Part shown: positions 1,247 through 34,791 of the stretch, one piece after another | Position numbering within the stretch: position 1 is the stretch's first letter | Layout of the letters: every line of letters begins with the position of its first letter | Assembly: GCA_029262315.1 (NCBI GenBank) | Contig: JAJCZP010000091.1 | Span: forward strand, 1 to 37,694 | Direction of reading: 5' to 3' | Length of the DNA stretch: 37,694 bases | DNA from: Deltaproteobacteria bacterium | GTDB lineage: Bacteria > Desulfobacterota > Binatia > UTPRO1 | Made by a program: the position numbers and the translations under genes | Notes under the pieces: model-generated | Told to the model about the DNA's origin: nothing | Database searches by the model: none | The model's input: the letters and a program-made list of their open reading frames with translations, nothing else

Positions 1247-1709
1247 CCGTCATGCCGAGCCAGCCGCCCGGACCACGGGGCCACCATTGGTCGGCAAGGA
1301 ACGGCAGGTTGGCGCACAACTGCCCGCCTGAAATCAGGTGCCGGTTCAGCCGCTCAATCCGTCGCACACGGGCGCACGCATCTATGCGATCGAACAGGAA
1401 TCGCTAGTTCTCGTCTGACCGCTCCGAGCGCCTTGCAAGCCGGGGGTCGCTGGTTCGATCCCAGTACCATCCATTCTCGAAGGCGCAGATGTCATCGGCG
1501 CTTTCTCGATCCGTCGCCGACCGCATCGGTCGTCGGTTTCGCGTCGGGGCTGCCTGGAACGTGTTCTTCGGCCGTGGCGATGTGTTCCTCGACTCGACGA
1601 GCGACTTCAACCATGTTCGGGCTGTACGGGGCGGGAGCCCCCGAGGCCCCCCTGGCGCGATGTAGTTATCGGGCGCCCTACTGATACGTGGTCGAGAACC
1701 GGCGCACGC
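1247..1709. other. Gene-poor convergent gap with a tRNA fragment
   Basis: This 463-bp stretch lies between the converging response-regulator pseudogene and pdxJ. The only recognisable part is the tRNA-like 3' segment at 1431-1473. Open frames here have no recognisable homology. A short G+C hairpin (GGGGC, loop GGGA, GCCCC at 1628-1641) could help end transcription from either side, but the stem has only 5 bp. Confidence 0.5.
1431..1473 (+). pseudogene. 3' fragment of a tRNA gene
   Basis: A perfect T-arm is present: stem 1449-1453 (GCTGG), loop TTCGATC at 1454-1460, and stem 1461-1465 (CCAGT, one G-U pair). It is followed by a 7-base acceptor strand ACCATCC and discriminator A (1473). Upstream, CTTGCAA could be an anticodon loop, but the matching anticodon stem, the D-arm and a 5' acceptor strand (GGATGGT) were not found. 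No CCA is encoded. The antisense frame reads WYWDRTSDPRLARR, a familiar spurious translation of tRNA 3' ends. It is probably a decayed tRNA or the duplicated tRNA end left by integration of an element. Confidence 0.55.
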
Positions 1710-2435: not shown

Positions 2436-2458
2436 CGATGTCGTTTGCGCTGCCGCGG

Positions 2459-3151
2459 CTACGAGTTTGTCCCAGGGCGGGTATAGGTTACCGCCGCCGG
2501 GTCGGCGACGATACCCTCGGCGAGTGCTGGATCTGTGATCGGGCGGTCGGCGACCTGCCGGAGCGGGATCTCTCCTGCCCAGCATTCCCGTGCCATGTCG
2601 GTGGCGTCATCAATGGGTGGTCCGGTGCGGATCTTGACCGACGCTTCACGGATGGGGAGCGCCAGGACGAGCGTCTCCCGGAGTTCCTCGTCACTTGGGG
2701 CGCGGACCGACGCCTGCCGTCCGGGGATGACGTGCTCGACCAATGCGACCATCGCGGCGCGCTTCTCTTCCAGATCGGTCACGGGGCGTGCCTGGCCGAG
2801 GAGGACGACCGAACGATAGTTCATCGAGTGATGGAACGCCGATCGCGCCAGGACGAGGCCGTCGATGAGGGTGACGGTCACGCAGGCGGACAGGCCGGAC
2901 GCGAGACCCTTGAGGGCCCGATTCGCCGCGGCACCATGGACGTAGAGTGTCGCGCCCACGCGCGCATACGTCGTCGGGATCACGTAGGGTTGATCGCCGA
3001 GGGTGAAGCCGAGGTGACAGACGAGTGCCTCGTCGAGGATCGATTCGACCGTGGCGCGATCGTAGGCGGCGCGTTCACGGCGGCGCTTCACCGTCGTGCG
3101 TACGGTCTGCAGGTTGTCGGATTGCGTGGAAGCTTCGTGCCGGGATTGCAT
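2459..3151 (-). CDS. Pyridoxamine 5'-phosphate oxidase-like FMN-binding protein
   Basis: This 230-residue split-barrel flavoprotein belongs to the PNPOx-like / NimA-related group (Pyridox_ox_2 type). Recognisable stretches are SILDEALVCHLGFTLGDQP, VIPTTYARVGATLYVHGA, VTLIDGLVLARSAFHHSMNY and SVVLLGQARPVTD. Members bind FMN or a related cofactor, but their substrates are often unknown, so PNP/PMP oxidase activity is not proven. The ATG at 3151 is preceded by AAGGAG at good spacing. It is first in an apparent operon with pdxJ and divergent from a MocR regulator across 37 bp, which supports a role in B6 metabolism or salvage. Confidence 0.88.
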   Translation of the reverse strand: MQSRHEASTQSDNLQTVRTTVKRRRERAAYDRATVESILDEALVCHLGFTLGDQPYVIPTTYARVGATLYVHGAAANRALKGLASGLSACVTVTLIDGLVLARSAFHHSMNYRSVVLLGQARPVTDLEEKRAAMVALVEHVIPGRQASVRAPSDEELRETLVLALPIREASVKIRTGPPIDDATDMARECWAGEIPLRQVADRPITDPALAEGIVADPAAVTYTRPGTNS

Positions 3152-3188
3152 TGCGGGCTCCTTATTGTTACAGTACAAAACAAGTAAC
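3152..3188. promoter_or_regulatory. Divergent promoter/operator between B6 operon and mocR-type gene
   Basis: This 37-bp AT-rich gap is unlike its GC-rich surroundings and must serve both divergent units. It carries an inverted repeat, GTTAC (3167-3171), 12-bp spacer, GTAAC (3184-3188), with an overlapping TTGT-N6-ACAA. This is a good candidate operator for the neighbouring MocR-type regulator. A TATAAA just inside the regulator gene (about 3201) may be part of a promoter or coincidental. Confidence 0.5.
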
Positions 3189-4508
3189 GTGCAGTCACAA
3201 TATAAACTCCGCGGATCGAGCGCAAGTGCCATCGCGGCCGACGTCGAGGAGGCGATCCGCGATGGGCGGTTGGCGCCCGGGACGCAGCTGCCGACGGTGC
3301 GCGCCGTCGCGGCGGAGCTCGGGTTGAGTCCTACGACGGTCTCGGCGGCATACCGCACGCTTCGCAATCGGGGTTTCGTGAGCGCGCACGGGCGTCGCGG
3401 GACCCAGGTGAGCCGCCGGCCGCCGCTGACCGCGGGGGCGTTCCCGGTCGTCCCTCCTGGTTTGCGCGATCTTGCCTACGGCAACCCCGATCCCGCGCTT
3501 CTGCCGTCGCTCGGCGCGGCGTTCAAGCGGGTGAGCCGCGGACCCCGCTTGTACGGCGAGGCCAAGAACCATCCCGAGCTGCTGCGTCTGGCGGCGGCGC
3601 AGCTCGCTGCCGACAAGATTCCGACCGATTCGTTGGCCGTCTTCGGCGGGGCCCTTGATGCGATCGAGCGCGTCCTCCAAGCCTGGCTGCGTCCAGGCGA
3701 CAGAGTGGCCGTCGAAGATCCTGGTTACGCCTCGATCTTCGACTTGCTCGGTGCGCTCGGGCTCGTTCCTGAACCGGTCGGTGTTGATGAGTGCGGGGCG
3801 CGTCCGAAAGAGGTCGAGCGTGCCCTCGGCGCCGGGGCGCGTGCGATCATTCTCACGCCGCGGGCGCAGAACCCGACGGGTGCGGCGTTCGATCGCGAAC
3901 GCGTCCGTGCGCTCGCAGGTGCACTCGCGCCGTCTCCCGACGTGCTCGTCATCGAGGACGACCATGCGGGCCCCGTGGCCGGAGCGCCCGCACTCACGCT
4001 GTCCGCCGTGCGCACACGGTGGGCGGTGGTCCGTTCCGTCTCGAAGTCTCTCGGGCCAGATCTCCGGCTTGCGATCACGGCAGGCGATCCGACCACTATC
4101 GCCCGCGTCGAGGGGCGGCAGCATCTTGGCGCGGGCTGGGTCAGTCACGTCCTCCAGGGACTCGTCGCTGCGCTCTGGGCCGATCCCGCAACCGAGAAGA
4201 AGCTCGAGACCGCGCAGCGTACCTATGCGCGCCGCCGCGATGCGCTGGTGCGCGCCCTGGCCGAGCGCGGCCTCACGGCCTACGGAGCGACGGGTATGAA
4301 CGTATGGATTCCCGTGCCCGAGGAGGCGCGCGCCGTGAACGCCATGGCGGCGGCCGGCTTTGCCGTCCGGGCGGGAGAGCCGCACCGGCTGCGGAGCCCA
4401 CCGGCTGTCCGGGTGACCATCGCCACCCTGCGGTCGAAGGACGCCGGACGTGTCGCCGACGTGCTCGGGGCCGCCTTTGCCCCGGCAAGCCTTACCGCGC
4501 CCGCGTAG
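3189..4508 (+). CDS. MocR-family regulator (GntR HTH plus aminotransferase-like domain), PdxR/PtsJ-like
   Basis: The 439-residue protein has an N-terminal GntR winged helix (IAADVEEAIRDGRLAPG, LPTVRAVAAELGLSPTTVS, RNRGFVSAHGRRGTQV) joined to a fold-type I aminotransferase-like domain. The latter has AVEDPGYASIFDLL, ILTPRAQNPTGAAF, VIEDDHAG and the PLP-lysine motif SVSKSLGPDLRL. MocR proteins of this kind sense PLP and control B6 genes, and its divergent position to two B6 genes agrees. The GTG at 3189 was chosen because the protein then begins VQSQYKLRG, the usual start for this subfamily; an in-frame TTG upstream falls within the promoter. The Shine-Dalgarno is weak. It probably autoregulates through the 37-bp gap. 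Confidence 0.9.
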   Translation: MQSQYKLRGSSASAIAADVEEAIRDGRLAPGTQLPTVRAVAAELGLSPTTVSAAYRTLRNRGFVSAHGRRGTQVSRRPPLTAGAFPVVPPGLRDLAYGNPDPALLPSLGAAFKRVSRGPRLYGEAKNHPELLRLAAAQLAADKIPTDSLAVFGGALDAIERVLQAWLRPGDRVAVEDPGYASIFDLLGALGLVPEPVGVDECGARPKEVERALGAGARAIILTPRAQNPTGAAFDRERVRALAGALAPSPDVLVIEDDHAGPVAGAPALTLSAVRTRWAVVRSVSKSLGPDLRLAITAGDPTTIARVEGRQHLGAGWVSHVLQGLVAALWADPATEKKLETAQRTYARRRDALVRALAERGLTAYGATGMNVWIPVPEEARAVNAMAAAGFAVRAGEPHRLRSPPAVRVTIATLRSKDAGRVADVLGAAFAPASLTAPA

Positions 4509-4600
4509 GGGCGCTCGGACATCTGGAACCCGTCTTGCTTCCGAGGATCGGGGCGGCCAGAGCCGGAACATCGTGCATCGACGTCGGGCGCCGACGCGTC

Positions 4601-4633
4601 GCGGCGTGCGGGCACAGAATGCCCGCACGCCGC
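4601..4633. terminator. Perfect 14-bp stem hairpin between converging genes
   Basis: The arms GCGGCGTGCGGGCA (4601-4614) and TGCCCGCACGCCGC (4620-4633) pair perfectly around the loop CAGAA. It sits between the ends of the mocR-type gene and etfA, so it can act as a bidirectional terminator. It lacks a T-run on either strand. The 3' arm plus TAG resembles the sequence before the stop of the dioxygenase gene near 12800-12818, which hints at a repeat family. Confidence 0.7.
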
Positions 4634-4641
4634 TAGGTGCA

Positions 4642-5607
4642 TCAGCCTGCTTTCAGCTTATCGATCGCTTCCTTCATCTCGGGGACGGCCTTGAAGAGAT
4701 CGGCCACGAGTCCGTAGTCTGCCACCTGGAAGATCGGGGCCTCTTCGTCCTTGTTGATGGCGACGATGACCTTCGAGTCTTTCATGCCGGCCAGGTGCTG
4801 GATCGCGCCCGAAAGCCCGACCGCGACATACAGCTCCGGCGCGACGACCTTGCCGGTCTGACCGACCTGAAGATCGTTCGGGACGAAGCCCGCATCGACG
4901 GCGGCACGGCTGGCGCCCATGGCAGCACCCATGGCATCGACGAGCGGCTCGAGGACGGTCGTGAAGTTCTCGCCGTTCTTGAGACCACGGCCCCCGGAGA
5001 CCACGACGCTGGCCTCGGTGAGTACCGGGCGGTCCGACTTTACCTCTTCGAGGTTCTCGAACTTCATGGTGAGGTTGCCCTCGAGTGACGGCGTCACCTT
5101 CTCGACGGTGCCGTTGCCCTCCTTTGCCGCCGGCTCGAACGCCGTCGCGCGGACCGAGATCACGCGCGGCGTGCCCTCGAGCTTCACGGTGGCGAAGACG
5201 TTGCCGGCGTACATGGGGCGAACGACGGTGCCGTCGTCGTTGATGTCCGAGATGTCGGCGGCAAGGGGGGCTTCGAGGCGGGCCGCCAGGCGCGGAGTGA
5301 GGTCCTTACCGATGGCGGTCGTCGTTGCGATGAACGTGTCGATGCCTTTGTCCTTCACCACGGCGGCCAGAGCCGCCGCGTGGGCATCGGCCAGGTAGTG
5401 CTCGAAGCGGGGATCGTCGAGTTGAAGGACGTCGAGCCCGTACGAGGCGGCTTCGCTGGCCAGTGCGTCGACTCCACTGCCGAGGATCACGGCCTTGCAC
5501 GCACCGCCGAGTTTCGCCGCGGCGGCTTTGCCCGCGCCGAATGCGACCAGCGTGGTCTTGGGGAAGGTACCGTTGTGATGTTCTGCGAAGACGAGGATGT
5601 CACCCAT
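4642..5607 (-). CDS. etfA: Electron transfer flavoprotein alpha subunit
   Basis: EtfA with EtfB takes electrons from acyl-CoA and related dehydrogenases and passes them to ETF:quinone oxidoreductase. The 321-residue protein has the N-terminal ETF domain ([37 protein letters not shown]) and the C-terminal FAD-binding domain with [49 protein letters not shown] and [16 protein letters not shown]. Its ATG at 5607 has an AAGGAGAAG Shine-Dalgarno. It is 21 bp behind etfB, so the two are co-transcribed. The nearby acyl-CoA carboxylase genes suit a role in acyl-CoA oxidation. Confidence 0.96.
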
Positions 5608-5628
5608 GATTCTTCTCCTTGAAAACCT

Positions 5629-6381
5629 CTAGATAACTTTGGCTTCAGTGTGGAGGAGGTTCACGAGCTCCTCGACCGATGCGACGATTTTGCCCGCCTC
5701 ACGACTCGGCGGTGGCTCCATCTTGGTGATCGTGACGCGCGGCGTGACGTCGACGCCGAGGTCGGCGACCGGAATCTCCTTCAGCTCCTTCTTGCGCGCC
5801 TTCATGATGCCGGGGAGCGACGCGTAGCGGGGCTCGTTCAGTCGGAGATCGGCGGTGATGACGCCGGGCAGCGGGAAGCTCAAGGTTTCCAGTCCGCCGT
5901 CGACTTCGCGCGTGACGCTCGCCGACTTCTGATCGTCGGAAAGCTCGATCTGCGATGCGAAGGTGCCCTGCGGCCAGCCGAGCAACTCGGCCAGCATCTG
6001 GCCGACGGCGTTCGAATCGTCATCGATCGCCTGTTTGCCCATGATGATCAGATCGGGCTTCTCGTCGTCGACGAGCTTCGCCAGCACACGCGCGACTCCC
6101 AGCGGATCGAGATCGTCGGCGAGGACCAGGATGGCGCGATCGGCGCCCATGGCGAGACCGGTCCGGAGCTGCTCCTGTGCGACCTTGTCGCCGATGCTGA
6201 CGAGGACGACTTCGCTCCCGGCGACTTTCTCTTTGATGCGGAGCGCTTCCTCGACGCCGATCTCGTCGAAGGGATTAACGACCCACTTGATGTTGTCGGT
6301 CACGATCCCGGTGCCATCGGGCTTGACCTTGATCGAGGTCTCGGGGTCGGGCACACGCTTCACGGTCACGAGAATCTTCAC
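5629..6381 (-). CDS. etfB: Electron transfer flavoprotein beta subunit
   Basis: This is the AMP-binding partner of EtfA; 250 residues is normal for the family. Signatures are KILVTVKRVPDPETSIKV, WVVNPFDEIGVEEALRIKE, GADRAILVLADDLDPL, DLIIMGKQAIDDDSNAVG and LPGVITADLRLNEPRYASLP. The start is GTG at 6381, with AAGGAAGG upstream; no ATG fits the conserved N-terminus. It precedes etfA with a 21-bp gap and follows the IclR-type gene by 96 bp on the same strand, so that regulator may control it. Confidence 0.96.
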   Translation of the reverse strand: MKILVTVKRVPDPETSIKVKPDGTGIVTDNIKWVVNPFDEIGVEEALRIKEKVAGSEVVLVSIGDKVAQEQLRTGLAMGADRAILVLADDLDPLGVARVLAKLVDDEKPDLIIMGKQAIDDDSNAVGQMLAELLGWPQGTFASQIELSDDQKSASVTREVDGGLETLSFPLPGVITADLRLNEPRYASLPGIMKARKKELKEIPVADLGVDVTPRVTITKMEPPPSREAGKIVASVEELVNLLHTEAKVI

Positions 6382-7257: not shown

Positions 7258-7404
7258 GTGTCGCCCTTTGGAACGGCATTTTACGCCTAGAGGACACGAC
7301 CCCCCTTGTCAATGCGGTTTCCTGGGCCCGGCGGTTGAAGGCCCGAACGGCGTATCCTGCGCGGCCTCGCGGGAGCGCGGTGGCCCCGGGGCCGCTGGGG
7401 CGGA

Positions 7405-8061
7405 CTAGTCTGGAGCACTCCGCCGGTGGGGGTGTCGGGGGACCCCGGCAAGAGCGGCCCGGGACGCCGCCCGGGGTGGCGGGCGCCTCGGGCCGCGGCG
7501 TGTTGGCCGCGCGAGCGGTGCTGGCGCCGCCGCGAGTGGCGCGAGGAGGCCGTGGACGGTGTCGAGCCAGCGGAGCTGGGCCTCGTACTGGAGGCGTGTC
7601 GCCTCGACGACCAGCCAGCGGGTGCGACTAGTGCGTGAAACGGGTGCCTGCGCCAGGAGCGCCGTCAGGGTCTCGACCACATCGGAGTAGCGTCGCGCTT
7701 CCGCTGCAAAGGACGTGAGTAGCGCCGGGAGGCGTTCGGGAGGGGCGAAGACGAGTTTTACGAACAGCGGATCGCGAATCGGCCGCAGGCGGCAGGCCGG
7801 CGCCGCGAGCCAGCGCTCGAGCTGATGGCGACCACTCGGCAGCAGGCGGTAGCGCGCGCGCTCCACGTTGCGCGGGCTCGCGGCCGCTTCACCGGTGCGT
7901 TCGACCAGGCGCGCCCGACGCAGCCGCTCGAGGGTCGAGTACACCTGGCCCGAGTTGAGTTGCCAGAAGTCACCGAGTGCACGTTCGAAGCGGCTCTTCA
8001 GCTCGTATCCGGTCAGATCGCGTTGCGCGAGAAGTGCGAGAAGTCCGTGCTTCACAGGCAT
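7405..8061 (-). CDS. PadR-family transcriptional regulator
   Basis: The 218-residue protein begins MPVKHGLLALLAQRDLTGYE, the canonical PadR winged helix, continuing LKSRFERALGDFWQLNSGQV, YSTLERLRRARLVER and ARYRLLPSGRHQLERWL. A PadR C-terminal helical domain follows. The last 45 or so residues are a Pro/Arg/Ala-rich tail with no homology. The ATG at 8061 has GAAGGGAG upstream; the longer open frame upstream is not conserved. It is divergent from the formyltransferase gene at 8295, and the 233-bp gap contains a 19-bp palindrome. Confidence 0.9.
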   Translation of the reverse strand: MPVKHGLLALLAQRDLTGYELKSRFERALGDFWQLNSGQVYSTLERLRRARLVERTGEAAASPRNVERARYRLLPSGRHQLERWLAAPACRLRPIRDPLFVKLVFAPPERLPALLTSFAAEARRYSDVVETLTALLAQAPVSRTSRTRWLVVEATRLQYEAQLRWLDTVHGLLAPLAAAPAPLARPTRRGPRRPPPRAASRAALAGVPRHPHRRSAPD

Positions 8062-8198
8062 GGCGCTGCTCCCTTCGATCGGTCTGTTGCCGGCGGAAGG
8101 AGCAACGTAGGTGCCAGCGATCGGTGCGCGGGTAACGCAGCGTTCTACTGGGGTTCTGCCGAGGGTTGCCGTGCGCGGCAGCGGCGAGCCTGCGGCGT

Positions 8199-8217
8199 GA
8201 CACGACCGGCTCGTGTC
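8199..8217. promoter_or_regulatory. 19-bp perfect inverted repeat, candidate operator
   Basis: GACACGA (8199-8205) and TCGTGTC (8211-8217) flank a 5-bp spacer in the divergent gap between the PadR and formyltransferase genes. A second structure follows: ACCCG-TC-CGGGT (8247-8258) nested between TGTCGC (8240-8245) and GCGACA (8264-8269), shortly before the ATG at 8295. The first looks like a dimeric-regulator site, the second like leader structure. It does not match the ATGT-N8-ACAT pattern known for some PadR proteins. Confidence 0.5.
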
Positions 8218-8294
8218 CGATCCTGACAAGCCGGGTCCGTGTCGCTACCCGTCCGGGTGCATGGCGACAGCGGCTCTGCTAGGCAAACGAGCCC

Positions 8295-9215
8295 ATGAGC
8301 TTGCGTATCGTTCTGATCGGCCAGGCAGCCTTTGCGGAGAAGGTCTTGGAGGGGCTCGTCGCGCGCGGTGACGACGTGGCCGCCGTGTATTGTCCGCCGG
8401 ACGGCGCCCGCCCGGATCCCGCGAAAGCCGCCGCCGAGGCCGCCGGCATCCCCTGCCACCAACCTCCCAGCTACAAGCCGGACGCGGTTCGCGCCGAGAT
8501 CGCCGCGCTTTCTCCCGACCTGATCGTCCTCGCATTCGTGACCAAGATCATTCCCGCGGCGGTTATCGAGGTGCCACGGCTCGGGAGCATCTGCTTTCAT
8601 CCGTCGCTGCTCCCGCGCTACCGAGGTGGGAGCGCGATCAACTGGCAGCTGATCCGGGGAGAAAGCGTGGCAGGAGCGACCGTCTTCTGGACCGATCCCG
8701 GAATCGATACGGGCCCCATCTTGCTGCAACGCGAGGTCCCCATCGACGAGAACCATAGTGCCGGGTCGCTGTACTACAAGGCGATCTTTCCGGTGGGGGT
8801 GGACCTCATGGTGGAGAGCGTGCGGATGATCGCCGATGGGACCGCGCCGCGGCAGGTGCAGGACGAGGCTGCGGCCACGTACGACCCGCTCTGCCGCGAC
8901 GAGCACGCCGCGATCGACTGGTCGCGTCCCGTGCGCGAGGTGCACAACTTGATTCGGGGCTGCGATCCGCAGCCCGGGGCGTTCACAGGTGCCGGATCGG
9001 CGCGGCTTCGCCTCTACGATAGTCGGATCGTCGAAGGGGCGGGCGCTCCGGGGACGGTCCTGGCACTCGACGACACGGGACTCACCATCGCCACGGCTAG
9101 CGGGGCGGTCCGGCTCGGAAAGGCGCGTGTCGACGGTACCAAGGAGAAGAAGGCCGCCGCTGCCGCTGCCACAGACGTGGGCCTGGCTGTCGGCTCGCAA
9201 CTGCTTTCGGGCTAG
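8295..9215 (+). CDS. Formyltransferase-family protein (Fmt / 10-formyl-THF dehydrogenase hydrolase-domain type)
   Basis: This 306-residue protein has the formyltransferase Rossmann domain and a C-terminal FMT-C-like barrel. It reads SICFHPSLLPRYRGGSAINW and ATVFWTDPGIDTGPILLQ. His102 and Asp138 match the catalytic His and Asp of the hydrolase domain of 10-formyltetrahydrofolate dehydrogenase, with the same 36-residue spacing. The HPSLLPRYRGGSAINW wording is closer to that enzyme than to housekeeping Fmt, in which the catalytic Asn-x-His is usual. It likely transfers or hydrolyses a formyl group from 10-formyl-THF; the acceptor is unknown. It lacks a fused aldehyde dehydrogenase domain. It is divergent from the PadR gene and ends 2 bp before a decayed gene. 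Confidence 0.85.
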   Translation: MSLRIVLIGQAAFAEKVLEGLVARGDDVAAVYCPPDGARPDPAKAAAEAAGIPCHQPPSYKPDAVRAEIAALSPDLIVLAFVTKIIPAAVIEVPRLGSICFHPSLLPRYRGGSAINWQLIRGESVAGATVFWTDPGIDTGPILLQREVPIDENHSAGSLYYKAIFPVGVDLMVESVRMIADGTAPRQVQDEAAATYDPLCRDEHAAIDWSRPVREVHNLIRGCDPQPGAFTGAGSARLRLYDSRIVEGAGAPGTVLALDDTGLTIATASGAVRLGKARVDGTKEKKAAAAAATDVGLAVGSQLLSG

Positions 9216-9217
9216 CG

Positions 9218-9328
9218 ATGCATCGGCCCATCACCGGATTCCATCAGGATGATGAGGGCCACTGCGTCGCCGGCCATCGCGCCGTCACCCGACGGCCGAT
9301 CGTCCTCGGAACCTCACTCGCACAGTCC
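9218..9328 (+). pseudogene. Decayed DUF3565-family gene
   Basis: The ATG two bases after the formyltransferase stop opens MHRPITGFHQDDEGHCVA, which matches the conserved DUF3565 N-terminus (ITGFHQDxEGHWVA) except Cys for Trp. What should follow (xLxCGHxQHVRHRPP) is reduced to GHR, then RRPIVLGTSLA, which only loosely recalls the end of the family. Segments appear to have been deleted, and the frame then runs on to 9598 without homology, antisense to the next gene. The intact family is about 60-70 residues with conserved Cys, absent here. The end point given is approximate. Confidence 0.6.
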
Positions 9329-9505
9329 TTCGGGGGCACAGACCTTACTGCAGCAATCCCGATCGACCGTGCACGCAGCGCCTCCGCGTATGCCCCATAC
9401 AGCCGACCATCCATCGGCGACTTCGACATACCGCCATTCCCAGCTAGTCCTACCCGCGCGGCGGGGAGGGCACTGCCGCCGGCACACGCGATCAGATTCG
9501 AGCAA
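9314..9505 (-). CDS. Small Cys-rich ORF of uncertain status
   Basis: A 63-residue frame opens 6 bp after the stop of the receiver protein gene. Its C-terminus, CTVDRDCCSKVCAPEGLC, has the C-x4-DCC-x2-C spacing of small disulfide-knot motifs common in secreted bacterial Cys-rich proteins. The N-terminal part is Arg/Trp-rich, has no signal peptide and no recognisable match, and the frame overlaps the DUF3565 remnant on the other strand. It may be the tail of a broken secreted protein or chance. Confidence 0.3.
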   Translation of the reverse strand: MLESDRVCRRQCPPRRAGRTSWEWRYVEVADGWSAVWGIRGGAACTVDRDCCSKVCAPEGLCE

Positions 9506-9511
9506 TCGACA

Positions 9512-10426
9512 TCACGCATGCGTCGGGTCGAAGTCCAGCAGTTCGTAGACCGTGCTGATCAGCTCGCTGGAGCCGTTGATACACCGAGCTGCGCCTAACT
9601 CCTTTGCCCGCGCCCCGTAGTGCTCCAGAGCCTTCTCACTGGCATAGATGACAACCCGTGTCTTGGGCCAACTCGCTCGGATGAGTTCAAGCAGTTCGAG
9701 CCCCGCATCAGTTTTGTGGCCTCGGCCCATATCCGAGATGACTAGGTCGAAGCGGTCTTCCTTGAGCTTCTGCACAGCCTCAGGTGTCGACTGAACCGCT
9801 TCAACAATAAAGCCGACCTGCTGGAAGATCCGATGCGGCACGACATTGTTCTCGGGAACGTCATCAACCCAGAGGATCCGCTGCTCGGAGCGGGCCTTTG
9901 GGTAAATGACCTCTGCCTTCACTCCCTGCGGTAGCGCCTGGAGCAGGTCGACCATGTCTGTGGCCGTCTTCGCCACGTTGGCCTTCGTTTGGGTGCGCAG
10001 ATCCTCAAGATTGCCGGTAAACTTTCGGACGTGCTCCTTTAAGCTTTGCTGCTGATTCGCGAGTTCCAGCTTGAACTTGTTGAATTCGTCGCCGAGCTCT
10101 TGCTTCAGAGCGGTGTCAAATGCTCGTTCGGCGTCCTTCGCTGCGTTCTTCACTGCCGCGTCGGCTGCGTTCTTCACTGCCTCCGCGGTTCCTCGAAATG
10201 TTCGCAAGCCCAAGAATCCCAGGATGGCGGCGAGAACCGCGATTCCCATGCCCACGATCGTTGCCGACGCCGTCAGCAGGTTCTCAAGGTAGGCTCTATG
10301 CGCTTGCGTCTCCTCACGCAGGAAACGGGCATACTCGAGCAAACTGTCCGTTCCTTCTGCCTCACTGCCTACAACCAAGGCCAGAAGCGACAGTGTTGCG
10401 TCCGCGAACATCCAGAGAGCGTTCAT
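9512..10426 (-). CDS. Membrane-anchored coiled-coil protein with C-terminal receiver-like domain
   Basis: Of 304 residues, two hydrophobic segments (about 4-20 and 53-74) are followed by a charged helical, probably coiled-coil region (78-165). A receiver-like domain follows (183-297): RILWVDDVPENNVVPHRIF, the acidic pair Asp188-Asp189, phosphoacceptor-position Asp232 in DLVISDMGRG, and VVIYAS. The switch Lys of receivers is replaced in GAARCINGSSEL (Asn284), so phosphorylation may be altered or lost. RILWVDD-PENN receivers occur in accessory and conflict-type loci, which is general knowledge and not proof here. ATG 10426 has GGGAGGGAG upstream; an earlier in-frame start lacks one. AVKNAA is tandemly repeated (residues 84-89 and 91-96). 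Base use looks less GC-rich than its neighbours. No kinase is adjacent. Confidence 0.8.
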   Translation of the reverse strand: MNALWMFADATLSLLALVVGSEAEGTDSLLEYARFLREETQAHRAYLENLLTASATIVGMGIAVLAAILGFLGLRTFRGTAEAVKNAADAAVKNAAKDAERAFDTALKQELGDEFNKFKLELANQQQSLKEHVRKFTGNLEDLRTQTKANVAKTATDMVDLLQALPQGVKAEVIYPKARSEQRILWVDDVPENNVVPHRIFQQVGFIVEAVQSTPEAVQKLKEDRFDLVISDMGRGHKTDAGLELLELIRASWPKTRVVIYASEKALEHYGARAKELGAARCINGSSELISTVYELLDFDPTHA

Positions 10427-24180: not shown

Positions 24181-25086
24181 CTAGCGGGAGGTGGCGAAGC
24201 AGGCCTCGATTCCGGGCGCAAGCGTTCGTGCGACGTGCTCCCGAAGCGCAGCGGGGTACACGGCTCCGAAGGAGGGGGTGGCGTTGATGTCGAGGAGGAC
24301 CGCCTCGCCGTTGTGCAGTACATAGTCGAACTTGCCGTAGTCGAAGCGCAGTGCCGAGCGTTCGGCGACGATCCGGTCGTGCACGGGGACTTCGTCGGGT
24401 GCTCGGCCGTTGGCTCCTTTGACGATCGGACCATCAGCCGCGCTTCGGATCGTGATGCTGCGGTCGCCGAGAAATGCGTAGCTCCGTAGATGGTACTGCC
24501 CGCCAATGTGCTCGGGGCGGAATCGCTCGACGATCAGGTCGGGATTGTCGAAGACCGCCGCGGGGACGTCGCGCTTGTGCGGGAAGATCGGGTAGCGGCT
24601 TGGATCGAGCGCCTCGGCGTAGGCGAGGGGGTCGGTCGAGCCGCTAGAGACGACACGCTGCGCGCGCCGTGCCGCGGTGCGGAGTCCCTGTGCCACGCGA
24701 GTCGGCAGCGGTTGGCGTCGTGCGAGCCGGCGTTCTGGCGCTCCGCCGAAGTTGGCGTTTGTCTTGACGATCACGGGGCCCTGATAGCTGTCGTGCTGGC
24801 GGACGAGATTGCTGCTGAAGACGGTCTTCCGGATGTCGGTCACCTCCCGATTGACGACGCACGGGTGAGCGGCGAGCGCGCGTTGGTAGTCACCCGGCAT
24901 GACGCTCAGATCGACCTGCGGCACGACGATGTCGGCGTCGAGAGGTGTGGCGACCCCGAATTGCATGGCAACGTCGAATCCCTCGGCGCGCCACGGCGGA
25001 ACACAATGCGTGACCCGGTACTCGTGCGTGCGGTCTGGGTGTTCATCGGCGTGAAAAAGAATGAGGATGCGCCGCGCCTTACGCAT
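24181..25086 (-). CDS. ATP-grasp ligase-like protein (operon gene 7)
   Basis: This 301-residue protein has an ATP-grasp layout. The N-terminal domain (ILILFHADEHPDRTHEYRVT) is followed by a Lys-bearing strand and glycine loop (PVIVKTNANFGGAPERR), an acidic hinge (DLIVERFRPEHIGGQYHLRS), and the metal/nucleotide segment GKFDYVLHNGEAVLLDINAT, where Asp replaces the usual Glu of E-x-N. Such enzymes join a carboxylate to an amine or thiol using ATP; the substrates are unknown. Its ATG overlaps the stop of the HTTM gene by 8 bp (ATGCGTAA). It is the last of seven tightly packed genes. It differs from the second ATP-grasp at 31959. Confidence 0.75.
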   Translation of the reverse strand: MRKARRILILFHADEHPDRTHEYRVTHCVPPWRAEGFDVAMQFGVATPLDADIVVPQVDLSVMPGDYQRALAAHPCVVNREVTDIRKTVFSSNLVRQHDSYQGPVIVKTNANFGGAPERRLARRQPLPTRVAQGLRTAARRAQRVVSSGSTDPLAYAEALDPSRYPIFPHKRDVPAAVFDNPDLIVERFRPEHIGGQYHLRSYAFLGDRSITIRSAADGPIVKGANGRAPDEVPVHDRIVAERSALRFDYGKFDYVLHNGEAVLLDINATPSFGAVYPAALREHVARTLAPGIEACFATSR

Positions 25087-25927
25087 CGACGACGCCGTGC
25101 AATTCGTCGAGGCGTTCGTGAACGGTATCGGCGTCGAAGTACGCGAGGTACAGGCACCACATGGTGGTCGAGAACGTGCCCATCGGGAGCAGCACGTAGA
25201 AGAGGCCGTGGAGCATGAGCCCCGGAACGGCGAGCCATCGCCGCGTGGCTGCAAAGAGCATCCCGCCGGCAAGCGCGTATTCGAGGGCGACCGTCGTGAC
25301 GGCGAGCAACGGCATGGCCGCCGCGAAGCCCGGAAACGCGGGTGGGCTGGACCCGACGTATAGCCAGCGGAAGATCAGCTCGAGGCGCTCGCCCGTCAGG
25401 AACGCGATGCTGGTCTTGTCGTATGCGGACCAGAAGTAGATCGCGGAGAGCTGACATGCGAGGAGCCGGAGGCCCCAGAGGTTGCCGCGCTCGGCGGGAG
25501 GAGGGCGGTGTTCGCGCCGCGCGCGGCGGACCGCCCACCATCGGTCGAACGAGTACGATCGACCGCATGGAGTGAGCGCGCAGAGGAAGGTCGCGTACGC
25601 GAGCAGAAACGTGTTGTGGTGCCCCCAGTACACGTTGGACAGCGCGTCACCGGCGTACACGAAGGTCAGGGCAGTCGTGGCCGCGATCGCCGTCGTCCAC
25701 TGGCTCCACACGCCGAGAAGCATCAGCGTCGTGGCGGGAAAGAACACGAGGGCGAGCCCGACACCCGCCGGCGTGAGATCGCGAAAGAGCTGCAGGTCGC
25801 TAGCCCAGCGCGCCCACAGGAGTGCCGCGAGGCCGATCCGGATGAGGGCGACGCTGCGGGTGGATCCTTCCGTCTCGACCGCCCACGCGACGAGGCGGCG
25901 TCTGAGATCGTGCGGTGCGAGGCTCAC
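25079..25927 (-). CDS. HTTM-domain membrane protein (vitamin K carboxylase-like fold; operon gene 6)
   Basis: The 282-residue protein has several hydrophobic helices (SVALIRIGLAALLWARW, LALVFFPATTLMLLGVW, TFLLAYATFLCALTP) and HTTM signatures: the YWGHHNTFLLAY, CGRSYSFDRWW and LLACQLSAIYFWSAYDKTS segments. HTTM proteins are related to the gamma-glutamyl carboxylase membrane domain; most bacterial members have unknown functions. GTG 25927 overlaps the stop of the preceding gene as GTGA; this start begins VSLAPHDLRRRLVAWAVE. The 41 codons upstream have no homology. It sits between a small membrane protein and an ATP-grasp gene. Confidence 0.85.
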   Translation of the reverse strand: MSLAPHDLRRRLVAWAVETEGSTRSVALIRIGLAALLWARWASDLQLFRDLTPAGVGLALVFFPATTLMLLGVWSQWTTAIAATTALTFVYAGDALSNVYWGHHNTFLLAYATFLCALTPCGRSYSFDRWWAVRRARREHRPPPAERGNLWGLRLLACQLSAIYFWSAYDKTSIAFLTGERLELIFRWLYVGSSPPAFPGFAAAMPLLAVTTVALEYALAGGMLFAATRRWLAVPGLMLHGLFYVLLPMGTFSTTMWCLYLAYFDADTVHERLDELHGVVDA

Positions 25928-26340
25928 GAGATTTCGGGGTCGTGTGGGGCACACAGGTTGTCGTGACCGCGCGCCAGCGGCCGCCAGCCGTGGGCGGTCG
26001 CCTCGCGTGCGTGCGCTCTCAGGTCGGCGTTCGGACCGAGCCGTTCGCACAGCTGCCGGGTGACTCGGGCGAAGCCCTTGGCCCCGGCGATGCGGAAGAG
26101 AGTCTCGGGTGCCGTCCGCCTCTCGAAGCCCAACACGGCGAAGCGATCGACGGGAGTGTCACGCTGCGGCGTGTCGCGCTGGAAAAACGTCACCTCGACC
26201 AGCCCGGTTCCGACGCCTCGATACATCACCCAGTTCTTGAAGATCGGATTCTGGCCATGCAGGACCTGTCGGTAGAACGGACCGCCGAACTGAAACGCGA
26301 CAATGAGGCCGAACGCGACGAGCCGTGCCCTCTGGGTCAT
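25924..26340 (-). CDS. Small protein with N-terminal membrane anchor (operon gene 5)
   Basis: The 138-residue protein begins with one hydrophobic segment (RLVAFGLIVAFQFGGPF), followed by a soluble domain: NPIFKNWVMYRGVGTGLVEV, a duplicated QRDTPQRDTP, and VTRQLCERLGPNADLRAHAR. I do not recognise a family. Small partners of this type often precede HTTM genes, so the two may work together in the membrane. Its ATG overlaps the lipoprotein stop (ATGA), and its stop overlaps the HTTM start (GTGA). Confidence 0.75.
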   Translation of the reverse strand: MTQRARLVAFGLIVAFQFGGPFYRQVLHGQNPIFKNWVMYRGVGTGLVEVTFFQRDTPQRDTPVDRFAVLGFERRTAPETLFRIAGAKGFARVTRQLCERLGPNADLRAHAREATAHGWRPLARGHDNLCAPHDPEIS

Positions 26341-29900: not shown

Positions 29901-30611
29901 ATGAAAACTGAAGACCAGAGTCGGCGGGCACGCCTCGCCACCACGACCGCACTGTTCGCCGCCGCGACGATCGGAATTGCCGTGGCGATGATCATGACCT
30001 TCCCCGCGACGGCTGACCTTCCGCGTGGTTTCTGGACCCCGGTCCTGGCCTTCGAACTCGCGCGCTCCGAGGACGATCTTGACTTTCTCGCGGGCACCGA
30101 CGCGGAGGCGGCCCGTCTACGCGGCCAGATGGACGCGGGGCATCGCTGGGACATGGCGTTTCCTGTCGCGTACGGTGGCTTCCTCACCCTCATCCTTCTG
30201 CAGCTGGCTTTTGATCGCGAGCGGCTGATGTGGCTCGGGGTGCCCGTCGCGTTGGCGACGATTCCCGCCGACATCCGCGAGAATCTCGTCTTGCTCGACA
30301 TCACGGCGACACTCGAGCAGGGCAGGTCCGCCGCGGACTTGCTACCGGCGTTGGATGCGGCGACGTGGGCGAAGTGGGGCGCGCTGGCGGTGGCCATGGG
30401 GTGGTCGGGGATCGGCTTGCTCCGTCGGGGTGCGCGGCTGACGGGCGGCCTTGGCGCGGTGGGTGCGGGCGCGATCGGACTCACGTGGCTGACGAACTCG
30501 CACGCGGGTATCGCCGAAGCGATGGCCGTCGTGGTCTTCGCGTTCTTTCTGGCGAACGCCGCGCGGTCCTTCGCCGCGGTATGGCGCTTGCGCGGGGCCG
30601 GGCGTCGTTGA
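29901..30611 (+). CDS. Multi-pass membrane protein of unknown function
   Basis: The 236-residue protein has about five hydrophobic segments: TTALFAAATIGIAVAMIM, AYGGFLTLILLQLAFD, LMWLGVPVALATIPA, GAVGAGAIGLTWLTNS and AEAMAVVVFAFFLANAA. The loop between the first two contains FELARSEDDLDFLAG and carries charged residues. No family was recognised. ATG 29901 precedes a basic stretch (KTEDQSRRAR) typical of a cytoplasmic N-terminus. It may be a transporter-like or assembly protein for the following ligase genes, with which its end overlaps. Confidence 0.75.
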   Translation: MKTEDQSRRARLATTTALFAAATIGIAVAMIMTFPATADLPRGFWTPVLAFELARSEDDLDFLAGTDAEAARLRGQMDAGHRWDMAFPVAYGGFLTLILLQLAFDRERLMWLGVPVALATIPADIRENLVLLDITATLEQGRSAADLLPALDAATWAKWGALAVAMGWSGIGLLRRGARLTGGLGAVGAGAIGLTWLTNSHAGIAEAMAVVVFAFFLANAARSFAAVWRLRGAGRR

Positions 30612-31939
30612 CGAACGTGACGCGCGCCGGTCTCGATACGCTGACGACACTGTTCCTGTGTCCCCGCACCCACAAACGTGTTGCGGCTTTCCGAGATCGC
30701 CGTGTGCGCGATCTCGTGACTCATGCCTGCCGCAACGTGCCTTACTACGGGCGACTGTTCTCGGCGCATGGCCTTCGTCCCGAAGACGTCAACGGTGTGC
30801 GTGACCTATGGAAGGTGCCGGTCACCACTCGACGCACGCTGCAGGGGTTGCGTCCCGAAGAGATCGTGGCGCGGGGAACGGACCCCGGAGCGCTGATCGC
30901 GGCTCAGTCGAGCGGTTCGACGGGGCGGCGGCTGACGATCCGGCGCACCTGGGCAGAGGAGCGATTGCTGCGCGCGCTTCGCAACAGGGTCGGGCGTCGA
31001 AGAGGTCGGCGGCCGTGGGAGCGGGGCGCGCGGCTCGAGATCCCCGAGCGGCTGCGTCCACACGACGCCCGCCGCCCCGGAATCTTCCTCCCCAAGTTGG
31101 GCCTCTACGATGATCGCTCGATCGATTGCCTCGCCGAGCCGGCGTACATCATCGAGCGGTTGCGGGCCTTGCGTCCGAGTGTGATCGGGGGCTTCCCGCC
31201 GGTGCTTTTCCGTGTGGCGCGTCATGCCGGTGACGGTGGGCTCGCCGATCTCGGCGTTCGCGCGATCGTCGTGGGTGGCGAGGTGCTGACACCGGCCATG
31301 CGGCGGCGCATTAGTGCCGCCTTCAACGCGCCCATCCACGAGAACTACGGCAGTATCGAGTTCGTCCAGATGGCGTGGCAGTGTCCCGTCGGCGAGCAGA
31401 TGCATCTCTGCGACGATACGATGGTTCTGGAGGTGCTCGGGAACAGTCAACCTGTCGCGGAGGGCGAGGTCGGCGAGGTGGTGGCCACGGCGCTTCATAG
31501 CTACGCGATGCCACTCATCCGCTATCAGATCGGCGATCTCGCCACACAGGGCGCGCCGCGGTGTCCGTGTGGAGCGCCGGTTGCGACGATCCGGGGTGTC
31601 CGGGGTCGGATGCTCGACTACTTCCCGCTTCCGGACGGGCGGGTCGTGCACCCGTATGAACTCACCATGCCGATGATGGCGGCGCATGCGTGGATCGAAC
31701 AGTACCAGCTGACGCAGGAACTCGTCGATCGCGTCGTGCTGCGCATCGTCCCCAGCGGTCCACCGCCGGCCGAGGCGATGGCGCACCTCCGGCGCCAGTA
31801 TGCGGAGAGCCTGGGCGCCGAGGTCGCGTTCGAGGTTCACCTCGTCGAAGATCTCAATCTCGACGCCAACGGGAAGTGCCGTGTGTCGCGATCACTGGTG
31901 CGCTCGCCGTACGACGAGCCAGCGGCCGAGATCCCGTGA
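30608..31939 (+). CDS. CapK/PaaK-like adenylate-forming enzyme
   Basis: This 443-residue protein has the ANL-superfamily marks of phenylacetate-CoA-ligase-like/CapK proteins: SSGSTGRRLTIRRT (nucleotide-binding), ENYGSIEFVQMAW, IRYQIGDLATQG, and DANGKCRVS with the catalytic Lys near the end. It also has HACRNVPYYGRLFSAHGL near the N-terminus. It should adenylate a carboxylic acid and transfer it to CoA or an amine; CapK relatives are linked to capsule and lipid-linked products. The start is uncertain: TTG 30608 overlaps the previous stop as TTGA, with GTG 30617 or ATG 30581 as alternatives. Followed 19 bp on by an ATP-grasp gene. Confidence 0.85.
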   Translation: MTNVTRAGLDTLTTLFLCPRTHKRVAAFRDRRVRDLVTHACRNVPYYGRLFSAHGLRPEDVNGVRDLWKVPVTTRRTLQGLRPEEIVARGTDPGALIAAQSSGSTGRRLTIRRTWAEERLLRALRNRVGRRRGRRPWERGARLEIPERLRPHDARRPGIFLPKLGLYDDRSIDCLAEPAYIIERLRALRPSVIGGFPPVLFRVARHAGDGGLADLGVRAIVVGGEVLTPAMRRRISAAFNAPIHENYGSIEFVQMAWQCPVGEQMHLCDDTMVLEVLGNSQPVAEGEVGEVVATALHSYAMPLIRYQIGDLATQGAPRCPCGAPVATIRGVRGRMLDYFPLPDGRVVHPYELTMPMMAAHAWIEQYQLTQELVDRVVLRIVPSGPPPAEAMAHLRRQYAESLGAEVAFEVHLVEDLNLDANGKCRVSRSLVRSPYDEPAAEIP

Positions 31940-31958
31940 GCGTCGTCACCGAGCCCGC

Positions 31959-33005
31959 GTGATCTGTTACCTCGTTACGGTCGATGGTCAGTCGACGATT
32001 GCGGGCTACCTCCGCACGCGCGGTCGCGCGTTCGCCGGTACGGTGCGGATTGTCCCGTACGAGCATTTGCCCCTGCTGCGCTGCCTGCCGGCGGGCACGT
32101 TCATCTTTGCCGATGTCGAGCGGTTGACCCCGGTGGCAGCGGAGCAGGCAGCCGGTGTCTGGAAGGCGCTGGCAGCCCATCGCGGCGACGCCCGCGTGTT
32201 GAATCATCCGACACGGAGCATGCGACGCTTCGAGCTGCTTCGGACCCTGCACGAGCAGGGCATCAACGATACCGATGTGTACCGCGTTGCCGATCTGCGC
32301 ATGCCCGCGCGTTTCCCGGTGTTCGTGCGGCGCGCCGACGATCACGCCGGGAGCTTGTCAGCGCTGGTGCGGACCGGCGCCGCGCTCGCTCGGGAAATCG
32401 ATCGGCTCACCAGTGCGGGCGTGCGGGCGGATGATCTCATCGTGGTCGAGTTCTGCGACACGGCCGACGCACACGGGGTCTATCGCAAGTATTCCGCGTT
32501 TCGTGTCGGTGATCGCATTGTGCCACGTCATCTGCTCTTCAGCCGTGACTGGGCGGTGAAGGTCGTCGATCTGCACGGTCCCGCCGACGTCGTCGAGGAA
32601 CTCGAGTACGTGCGGACGAATCCTCATCGCGAGGAGTTGATGGCGATCTTCGAGCTGGCACGTATCGAGTTCGGCCGCATCGACTACGCCCTTCGCGCCG
32701 GCAAGATCCAGGTGTGGGAGATCAACACCAACCCGATCCTCGGCACCTTCGACGATGGCGGAATGCCGGCGCGGGCTCCGGTGATCGCCCACGTCACTCC
32801 AGCCTTTGCGGAGCAACTGCGAGCGCTCGACCCACCCGACGTGCCGCCCCGAGGGCTCGTCGTGACGACCGCGTCGCGAATGGAGCTGCTCCGCCGTCGT
32901 CTCCGCCTCGTCGTGGAGGCGCTCCTGCGCGCCTGCGGGCTTGGGCGCTACGAGCCAATGATTACCCATCGGCTGGGTGCGCTGCGCCGTCGTATCCTCC
33001 GCTGA
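31959..33005 (+). CDS. ATP-grasp ligase-like protein
   Basis: The 348-residue protein has an N-terminal pre-ATP-grasp domain (ICYLVTVDGQSTIAGYLRTR, VLNHPTRSMRRFELLRTL) and an ATP-grasp core: FPVFVRRADDHAGSL, LIVVEFCDTADAHGVYRKY, RIDYALRAGKIQVWEINTN with the Glu-x-Asn metal motif. A C-terminal region of about 60 residues is basic and hydrophobic (ELLRRRLRLVVEALLRA) and may contact the membrane. It probably makes an amide or thioester bond with ATP. The GTG start fits the conserved beginning; no strong Shine-Dalgarno. It ends about 60 bp from the converging AlaRS-like gene. Confidence 0.78.
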   Translation: MICYLVTVDGQSTIAGYLRTRGRAFAGTVRIVPYEHLPLLRCLPAGTFIFADVERLTPVAAEQAAGVWKALAAHRGDARVLNHPTRSMRRFELLRTLHEQGINDTDVYRVADLRMPARFPVFVRRADDHAGSLSALVRTGAALAREIDRLTSAGVRADDLIVVEFCDTADAHGVYRKYSAFRVGDRIVPRHLLFSRDWAVKVVDLHGPADVVEELEYVRTNPHREELMAIFELARIEFGRIDYALRAGKIQVWEINTNPILGTFDDGGMPARAPVIAHVTPAFAEQLRALDPPDVPPRGLVVTTASRMELLRRRLRLVVEALLRACGLGRYEPMITHRLGALRRRILR

Positions 33006-33067
33006 GTACCTCGCGCGACCGCTGGCAAGTGGACGCGCGGATCGTGCTCGACGTCGATGGCCGCGCG

Positions 33068-34240
33068 TTAGGCCGGGCGACGATTCGAAGCGGGGTAGTG
33101 GGTGACGGCTCGGACGGTCGCTTCGATGGCGTCGCTGAGGTGAGGGTGCCACGACTGTGTAGCCGCGTGCTCGGCGAGGAGGTGCGCGAGCGTCGCCGGG
33201 TCGAGCTCGCGAGACACGTTGCGCTTCAAGCGCGCGGTTCGCTTGCGTCGTTTGGGACTGAGGAGCCGGTCCCCATCCGGCCCCGGACGGAAGACGGCCT
33301 CGGGGTGGAAGTGGAGATCGGTGTAGATGCGGTGCAGGGCACGTAGACTCTCTCCCGCGGCGAGTATCTCGGGTGGAGCGGTGTCGGGGAGAGCGTGCCG
33401 CAGCGCGGTGTAGAACGGTCGCAGGTAGTCGACATCGTGGACACGATCCAATCCGTTCACGACGGCGCAGAGGCGCTCGACGCCGACGCCAATACCGATG
33501 GCGCCGGCATCGAGTTCGGTCAGATCGACGATGCTGTCCCGGCGGAGGTGCGCACCCTCGAAGACGGGACGCCAGGTCAGGTATTCCGACGTGGCCACAT
33601 CGACCAGATCCGGCGTCGTGCGCGTGCCGATATTCACAAAGATCTCGTTGCGGTATCCCCATGGCGTGGGGCGATGGACGTGGAGCGAGAGCAGCGTATC
33701 GCGTGTGCGATCCGGAATCAGGTTCTCCTCGGGCACGCCGGCGCCGCAGAGCGCGTCGTGCGACAGTGTGTCTGGAGGAATCACGACCGGTAGGTCGTAC
33801 GCGCCGCCCGTCAATTCTGCCACCGGGCCCCCCGCGCAGTAGCTCGCGTGCACACGGTCGGCGGGAATGCCCACTGTCGCGAAGAAGCGCACCACCTCCT
33901 CGAGCTGCCAGCCTTGCAGTCGGCGGTAGTCCGGGCGGTGGGCGAGCGCGACTTCGCCATTCAGATCCGCCATCTCGAACACGCCGAGATGCCATCGACC
34001 TCCGAGTCGCAGTCGTTCGATGTCGTCCGCTCGTACGCAACTCTGAACGGTGGAGAACACGAAGTCGTGTTTCCAGTCCAGGAAGCCGCCGTACTCCCCC
34101 AGCCAGTGGTGTTCGGTCGAACTCATGTTGAACGCGCCTGGAAAGGCGGCCGTCAAGAGCGGGGCGCGCCGGACGGTCTCGCAGCCATCATATTTCGGCC
34201 ACGCCTGGAGGCGTTCACGGAGCTCGCGGTACGACGTCAT
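33068..34240 (-). CDS. Stand-alone alanyl-tRNA synthetase-like catalytic domain
   Basis: This 390-residue protein resembles the class II catalytic core of AlaRS: FSTVQSCVRADDIERLRLGG with RWHLGVFEMADLNG (motif 2 region), WGYRNEIFVNIGTR, ATSEYLTWRPVFEGA, and motif 3 as AIGIGVGVERLCAVVNGLDR. Full AlaRS is near 870 residues; the editing and C-Ala domains are absent, so a housekeeping role is unlikely. Stand-alone class II homologues can activate amino acids for carrier proteins or small-molecule synthesis, which fits the adjacent ligases. The C-terminal 60 residues are basic (SPKRRKRTARLKR). The start was placed at ATG 34240 because TSYRELRERLQ matches the AlaRS opening. Confidence 0.8.
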   Translation of the reverse strand: MTSYRELRERLQAWPKYDGCETVRRAPLLTAAFPGAFNMSSTEHHWLGEYGGFLDWKHDFVFSTVQSCVRADDIERLRLGGRWHLGVFEMADLNGEVALAHRPDYRRLQGWQLEEVVRFFATVGIPADRVHASYCAGGPVAELTGGAYDLPVVIPPDTLSHDALCGAGVPEENLIPDRTRDTLLSLHVHRPTPWGYRNEIFVNIGTRTTPDLVDVATSEYLTWRPVFEGAHLRRDSIVDLTELDAGAIGIGVGVERLCAVVNGLDRVHDVDYLRPFYTALRHALPDTAPPEILAAGESLRALHRIYTDLHFHPEAVFRPGPDGDRLLSPKRRKRTARLKRNVSRELDPATLAHLLAEHAATQSWHPHLSDAIEATVRAVTHYPASNRRPA

Positions 34241-34347: not shown

Positions 34348-34791
34348 ATGGACTCTGCGGCTGAGGGGCCCCTGATTCGGCTCGCGATCTCTGAGAGGGA
34401 GTACGACGTCTGTGCTCCCGTGATGTTGCAGCTCCGTCCCCATCTCACCAGGAGTATGCTCGTCACCCAGATGCGGCAGCAATCTCTCGAAGGGTACCAG
34501 CTCGCCTACCTCACGACGGCCAGTGGTCACATTGCCTGCGCGGCGGGTTTTCGCCTGCTTCGCAATCTCGCCTGGGGGCGTTTTCTGTACGTCGACGACC
34601 TCGTCACTGCCGAGGAGGAACGCTCGCGCGGTCATGGCGCCGCGATGCTCCGCTGGCTCGAAGCTCGTGCGCGCCAAGACGGCTGTGCGGCGCTGCATCT
34701 CGATTCGGGAGTGCAGCGCGAGTCCGCGCACAGGTTCTACAAACGTGAGGGGCTCGCGATTTCGTCGTATCACTTCCAGAAACTCTTCTGA
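34348..34791 (+). CDS. GNAT-family N-acetyltransferase
   Basis: The 147-residue protein has GNAT motif A, VDDLVTAEEERSRGHGAAML with the acetyl-CoA loop R-G-x-G-x-A, and motif B (SGVQRESAHRFYKREGLAIS). It transfers an acetyl or other acyl group from CoA to an amine; the substrate is unknown. AAGGGGAGAG lies upstream of ATG 34348; an earlier ATG at 34285 would add 21 unconserved residues. It is divergent from the AlaRS-like gene by about 107 bp and may be part of the same pathway. Confidence 0.88.
   Translation: MDSAAEGPLIRLAISEREYDVCAPVMLQLRPHLTRSMLVTQMRQQSLEGYQLAYLTTASGHIACAAGFRLLRNLAWGRFLYVDDLVTAEEERSRGHGAAMLRWLEARARQDGCAALHLDSGVQRESAHRFYKREGLAISSYHFQKLF

Follow-up and report, generated by a model that had tools for sequence, protein, structure and literature searches.

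The stretch of DNA analysed here (the window) comprises 37,694 nucleotides of contig JAJCZP010000091.1, from the assembly GCA_029262315.1 of a Deltaproteobacteria bacterium, and the element of main interest is a gene at 33068-34240 on the minus strand whose product resembles the catalytic core and helical domain of alanyl-tRNA synthetase (AlaRS). Its start, the ATG at 34240, is inferred from relatives. Three genes lie on the plus strand to its left, encoding a multi-pass membrane protein (29901-30611), without a family match in Pfam or NCBIfam, a CapK/PaaK-like adenylate-forming enzyme (30608-31939, start inferred), whose profile matches fall under cut-off, and a weakly identified ATP-grasp-like ligase (31959-33005, GTG start inferred). 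The AlaRS-like gene is convergent with the ATP-grasp-like gene, 62 bp from its stop, and divergent from a GNAT acetyltransferase gene on its other side (34348-34791, plus strand; start inferred, the longest open reading frame (ORF) running from 34285). An Rfam scan and a tRNA scan of the window were both empty. A preliminary description of this DNA had joined the three activating enzymes into one candidate amide-forming system, without mentioning the opposite strand and convergent orientation of the AlaRS-like gene.

By its modelled fold, the product of 33068-34240 is a paralog of AlaRS. Family profiles recognize it poorly, with E 0.23 in Pfam and E 2.6e-5 for the NCBIfam alaS-type model, both far below cut-off. 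A structure model built together with five relatives has a mean predicted local distance difference test score (pLDDT) of 65.7; a Foldseek search with this model returns AlaRS entries at all of ranks 1-27 (rank 9 by its SYA label), and VIA-align superposes 325 residues on AlaRS with a Z of 23.3 and a root-mean-square deviation of 3.8; the next-ranking class II enzyme has a Z of 9.7. The nearest fold in the model is that of AlaRS, not of another class II enzyme. The protein has about 390 amino acids and ends with the helical domain, without an editing or C-Ala domain, while the same genome encodes a full AlaRS of 872 amino acids on another contig (C132). The absence of these domains and the non-housekeeping character of this gene, both put forward in the preliminary description, are thereby borne out. 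A separate ordinary AlaRS is present in all seven genomes checked, namely the window genome, those of the five relatives tested, where it scores far above the Pfam cut-off, and G1037 (genomes other than the window's are designated by G numbers); a role as replacement AlaRS was rejected, as the ordinary enzyme is also present.

The residues kept and lost by this family are the main guide to its function. They were counted in all 23 member genomes, giving 26 rows with the pieces of split genes kept apart and gaps set aside; 32 profile-selected ordinary AlaRS served as the comparison set. The class II ATP-binding arginines are invariant (R69 in 20/20 AlaRS-like rows, R242 in 21/21), and F90 (19/20) and E241 (21/21) are kept as well. 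A new conserved block has appeared in the family, consisting of G (22/22), Y (21/22), R (21/22), N (20/22) and E (20/22, the other two Asp), with a Trp ahead of it in 18/22; the row of G1184 is the main exception to the block. In ordinary AlaRS, the PSNxxxGYVLRR helix is a conserved element of tRNA-Ala recognition that reads the G3:U70 pair. The GY[VI]LRR motif of this helix is found in none of the 26 AlaRS-like rows, five of which end before it, versus 23 of the 32 AlaRS. Two alanine-binding residues of AlaRS are equally missing, W170 (0/22 vs 31/31) and D235 (0/21, with Glu in two rows, vs 32/32). Asp235 of AlaRS holds the amino acid by its alpha-amine (PMC12143591). A smaller earlier count, of 16 family rows against 25 AlaRS rows picked by a motif filter that asks for part of motif 3 and from which two archaeal AlaRS were dropped, gave an identical result. 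Because of this residue pattern, the family has likely retained the use of ATP, while the use of alanine and of tRNA-Ala is unlikely.

The AlaRS-like family is rare and patchy and is found mainly in DPANN archaea and Patescibacteria. It was recovered in 23 genomes in total, the window's included, and weaker members may be missed. A scan of named genomes yielded five relatives, in a Diapherotrites archaeon, a Pacearchaeota archaeon, two Paceibacterota and one further bacterium, of which the Diapherotrites relative is 49% identical to the window copy over its partial copy. Counts within larger groups come from overlapping genome sets, each of which includes the genome on which it was centred. 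In the window's own phylum, a profile search at E 1e-5 finds the family in one of 395 genomes. The same threshold is passed by 122 of 379 genomes in the phylum of G403, a Paceibacterota genome; only G403, G661 and G762 score at least 330 bits, and the other matches reach at most 51 bits, mostly in ORFs of ordinary AlaRS length. At E 1e-20 the family occurs in 9/279 genomes of the phylum of the Pacearchaeota record and in 1/87 of that of the Diapherotrites record, and at E 1e-18 in 5/213 and 10/200 genomes of two orders within the former phylum.

In a tree of 26 rows, drawn with a midpoint root, the window copy falls within a five-row clade together with the Diapherotrites copy and three copies from the phylum of the Pacearchaeota record (support 100/100). 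Since it groups with archaeal copies and is the sole carrier seen in its phylum, horizontal transfer is the simplest reading, and the window bacterium has probably gained the gene in this way. Nine genes of the window served as reference (two of them, and ATPgrasp2, were started in frame at non-start codons), and the AlaRS-like gene falls within their range in GC content, GC at third codon positions (GC3) and codon use. As the composition matches the host and the nearest copy is only about 50% identical, the transfer would not be recent. The same values led us to reject an alien or misbinned contig; a phage or plasmid origin was also rejected, as collections of phages, plasmids and viral contigs hold no relative at the limits used.

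Several member loci show features of their own. In G1377 (1447-4921, plus strand), the gene lies in two overlapping frames, and split copies also occur in G830 and G1262; two ORFs upstream in G1377 is a 361-amino-acid class II synthetase-like protein of D/K/N type (PF00152, 112 bits). In G404 (7674-8642, plus strand), about 108 unrelated residues, HAD-like by eye, take the place of the protein's N-terminal half. G1184 and G1281 had been flagged for 'internal stops'; judged by ORFs, their frames are intact and the stops fall at or close to the ends. Tgt is an enzyme of queuosine synthesis in tRNA, and GluQ-RS is a GluRS paralog that modifies queuosine. G403 encodes a second, different AlaRS-core paralog (414 amino acids, alaS-type E 1e-8, Pro at the Asp235 position), the two genes at 5001-6245 and 3779-5011 on the minus strand being this paralog and the Tgt gene, which overlap by 11 bp; by analogy, this Tgt-linked paralog could be an AlaRS-derived tRNA-modification enzyme.

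A recurrent neighbour of the family is a winged-helix regulator of TrmB type. Neighbours were counted in the 22 members with a visible 5′ side, leaving out G1021, which starts at a contig end. The regulator gene is immediate and divergent in seven of them (G400, G661, G830, G858, G1054, G1184 and G1386) and divergent beyond one or two short ORFs in two more (G810 and G1037), and all nine of these regulators score above the Pfam TrmB cut-off. In one further member, G762 (7297-8928, plus strand), the AlaRS-like protein itself carries a C-terminal TrmB effector domain. This fused tail matches no Pfam, NCBIfam or winged-helix model; against a profile of seven of the regulators it scores 86.8 bits (E 8e-26), compared with 9.0 bits for the best of 200 shuffles, and it is 33-37% identical to two regulators, with no significant match to two others. 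Member genomes have 1 to 16 TrmB genes each (16 genomes), so chance predicts far fewer such neighbours. In the 15 of 23 genomes used for this estimate (without G1021, G1184, G1262, G1281, G1346, G1377, G1385 and G1386), five strictly immediate neighbours are seen, where 0.08 (5′ side) to 0.16 (either side) would be expected; assuming one gene per kb and independence, the probability of five or more is 9e-9 to 3e-7. These P values are too small, as G400, G810 and G1037 are related, as are G1054 and G830, while the evidence of the fusion is unaffected.

The genes to the left of the AlaRS-like gene form a different association. The inferred start of the CapK-like gene overlaps the stop of the membrane gene by 4 bp and a gap of 19 bp separates the CapK-like gene from the inferred start of the ATP-grasp-like gene, and the three can be one operon. 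The four genes listed in the preliminary description are present, and its observation is partly borne out. By sequence, the CapK-like protein is a relative that scores below both cut-offs, with E 1.6e-34 and 119.5 bits for the DVU_1553-type coenzyme A ligase of NCBIfam (cut-off 300) and 23.4 bits for Pfam AMP-binding (cut-off 29.9). The ATP-grasp label is weak, being based mainly on motifs spotted by eye: Pfam gives nothing and the sole NCBIfam match is at chance level (E 0.09), ATP-grasp enzymes stand among the top matches of its profile in the PDB, none of them significant (best E 0.025), and a single-protein structure model is unusable (pLDDT 38.6).

Relatives of the ATP-grasp-like protein are found in 4 of 385 sampled genomes of the window's phylum. 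The window's own genome has two paralogs (45% identical over most of the length and 34% over part of it), and two further relatives are on plasmids, of Deinococcus and Paracoccus. None of these own-genome paralogs and plasmid relatives has a CapK or AlaRS-like neighbour. The Deinococcus relative lies beside an ATP-binding protein and histidine-degradation genes, and that of Paracoccus within a surface-polysaccharide cluster. On contig C14, the 45% paralog (7470-8600, plus strand) and a gene for a peptide beta-hydroxylase of aKG-HExxH type (8564-10267, minus strand; TIGR04267, 116 bits, cut-off 40) stand back to back, a pair that is a possible peptide-modification locus. Within the window, a second ATP-grasp-like ORF, recognized by eye and by alignment, adjoins a gene for an HTTM-domain membrane protein (24181-26050, minus strand; PF05090 28.6 bits, cut-off 27.7). 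In G300, a more distant relative (28% over 171 residues) and an acid ligase of another AMP-binding kind (Pfam 270 bits) are separated by a few genes, so that pairing of an adenylating enzyme such as CapK with this ATP-grasp type may still occur; the window's CapK and membrane proteins match nothing at this locus at E 1, and the ligase is not CapK. As a guess, the CapK-like and ATP-grasp-like pair might decorate a glycan or lipid.

Taken together, these data are best explained if the AlaRS-like protein is a ligase that uses ATP to activate an acid other than alanine, derived from AlaRS and linked to TrmB in part of the family, a reading to which we give about an even chance. The conserved arginines of motifs 2 and 3 would bind ATP in the AlaRS manner, and a pocket rebuilt around the G-Y-R-N-E block and a D-[IV]-[AG]-T motif would hold a carboxylic acid. 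This acid, which would lack the alpha-amine contact of alanine or not be held by it, may be activated as an acyl-AMP, whose acyl group would be transferred not to tRNA-Ala but to water, ammonia, a small acceptor or a protein. The family, its fold, residue pattern and distribution, the link and fusion to TrmB, and the failure to detect CapK or ATP-grasp beside relatives are what the data show; the chemistry, the substrate and the direction of acyl transfer are inferred. Because the gene is tied to TrmB, divergently or once by fusion, a TrmB sensor probably controls the reaction, or receives its signal, in the part of the family where the link exists. This keeps one part of the interpretation first offered for the locus: acid activation outside translation fits a non-housekeeping AlaRS core that keeps the ATP-binding arginines and has lost the features of tRNA-Ala use, while the activation of an amino acid is doubtful in detail, as Asp235, the alpha-amine anchor, is gone family-wide. 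A more specific version, in which the adenylate or a downstream product of such an acid-activating AlaRS core is the ligand of the partner TrmB, is the boldest reading and an unlikely one; it would make of the AlaRS core and an archaeal-type TrmB a BirA-like metabolite switch, patchy in DPANN and Patescibacteria and passed to a bacterium with a larger genome.

A number of observations weigh against an acid-activating ligase. The structure model is of moderate confidence, which falls to low values close to the active site (184-198 and 227-249), and N212 is absent from all 20 AlaRS-like rows that cover it, but this column is alignment-dependent. Twelve of the 22 members, the window copy included, have neither a TrmB neighbour nor the fusion, and the divergence of TrmB and AlaRS-like proteins over the nine pairs shows no significant rank correlation (Spearman 0.26, Mantel p 0.12; Pearson 0.64). 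G1184 is a doubtful member, with a weak score (76 bits), a long branch and no Y-R-N block, although its TrmB shares 55% identity with the G1386 regulator; leaving this member out gives six immediate, two short-ORF-spaced, one fused and 12 unlinked members of 21. The linkage and the effector-domain fusion, together with the loss of substrate-binding residues, also suit a non-catalytic sensor or regulatory subunit whose ligand might be an acid, a nucleotide or tRNA and whose signal would go to TrmB or some other partner; HisZ and the HisRS-like domain of GCN2 are models for it. Such a role is rather improbable, as ATP-site arginines that do not vary and a new pocket block conserved among proteins of 20-50% identity favour catalysis. 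Finally, splitting or truncation is apparent in four members (G830, G1262, G1377 and G404), so the gene may be dispensable. From these copies one could argue for a decaying or dispensable former AlaRS without present function, which is very improbable given that the window's gene is unbroken and resembles the host in GC and codon use, and that distant copies keep the same residues.

Two further alternatives concern what the protein acts with. An aminoacyl transferase that moves the aminoacyl group from a charged tRNA to a small molecule, without adenylation of its own, has a precedent in AcmF, described as a truncated AlaRS-like protein made of aminoacylation and tRNA-recognition domains only, which transfers Ala from Ala-tRNA (PMC12945691). 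The window family is similarly truncated, with altered alanine-site residues. AcmF is described there as devoid of most key ATP-binding residues, whereas the class II arginines are invariant here, and the conserved tRNA-recognition motif is lost in all rows of the family, a comparison that takes AcmF by description only; such a transferase is slightly less probable still than a sensor. The three-enzyme pathway first proposed, in which the CapK-like, ATP-grasp-like and AlaRS-like proteins act in sequence on one product, would account for genes lying within 4.4 kb, two of them seemingly in one operon with the membrane gene, and for the distant ATP-grasp relative near another AMP-binding ligase. 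Against it, the AlaRS-like gene is convergent, the four nearer ATP-grasp relatives lack CapK and AlaRS-like neighbours, and, of the phylum genomes sampled for each, 4 of 385 have the ATP-grasp-like protein and 1 of 395 the AlaRS-like one. The 22 other member genomes supplied 23 loci of 3.6 to 16 kb, together 227.6 kb; phmmer at E 0.01 detected in them no relative of the window's CapK, ATP-grasp, membrane or GNAT protein, with controls found, and no carrier protein was noticed by eye in the ORF lists, no carrier-protein model having been run. The three-gene system is thus unsupported, its genes being, as far as tested, scattered in relatives, which the preliminary description itself names as a refutation, and we consider a common pathway highly improbable. 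The CapK-like/ATP-grasp-like pair, as an operon separate from the AlaRS-like gene, does not appear to be part of that family's system and should not be read as such.

To our knowledge, few catalytic-core paralogs of AlaRS exist, and a search of the open-access literature found no description of this AlaRS-like family or of its pairing with TrmB. The combination of an ATP site left intact, a substrate pocket that has been rebuilt and, in some very small genomes, a regulator that recurs would suggest a small-molecule or signalling reaction not yet recognized there; the family supplies residues to test and merits specialist attention. With AlaRS it shares the fold of the catalytic core and helical domain and the arginines of motifs 2 and 3, but differs by the loss of Asp235, Trp170, the tRNA-recognition motif and the editing and C-Ala domains. 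BirA, a biotin ligase fused to a winged helix, likewise couples a class II-like acid-activating domain to transcription control, but the regulator of the AlaRS-like family is TrmB, usually a separate gene, and the lone fusion (1/22) carries the TrmB effector domain without a winged helix. A table in a 2022 review lists only Ala:carrier-protein ligases for AlaRS (PMC9437257), and the case of AcmF, an aminoacyl transferase that resembles AlaRS and belongs to ascamycin biosynthesis, came later (PMC12945691). AcmF resembles the window family in being truncated, without editing or C-Ala domain, in its altered alanine-site residues and in acting outside translation, but by description it lacks ATP-binding residues and uses Ala-tRNA, whereas the window family keeps the ATP arginines and has lost the tRNA motif, and their lineages differ. 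The review also covers paralogs of aminoacyl-tRNA synthetases that activate an acid without charging tRNA, namely AS-A, PoxA (EpmA) and the amino acid:carrier-protein ligases (PMC9437257). AS-A and PoxA are derived there from AspRS and LysRS, and no link to a carrier protein, EF-P or asparagine was noticed around the AlaRS-like genes, but all of these enzymes have in common with the AlaRS-like family a truncated class II core that is reused, or in its case would be reused, as a ligase.

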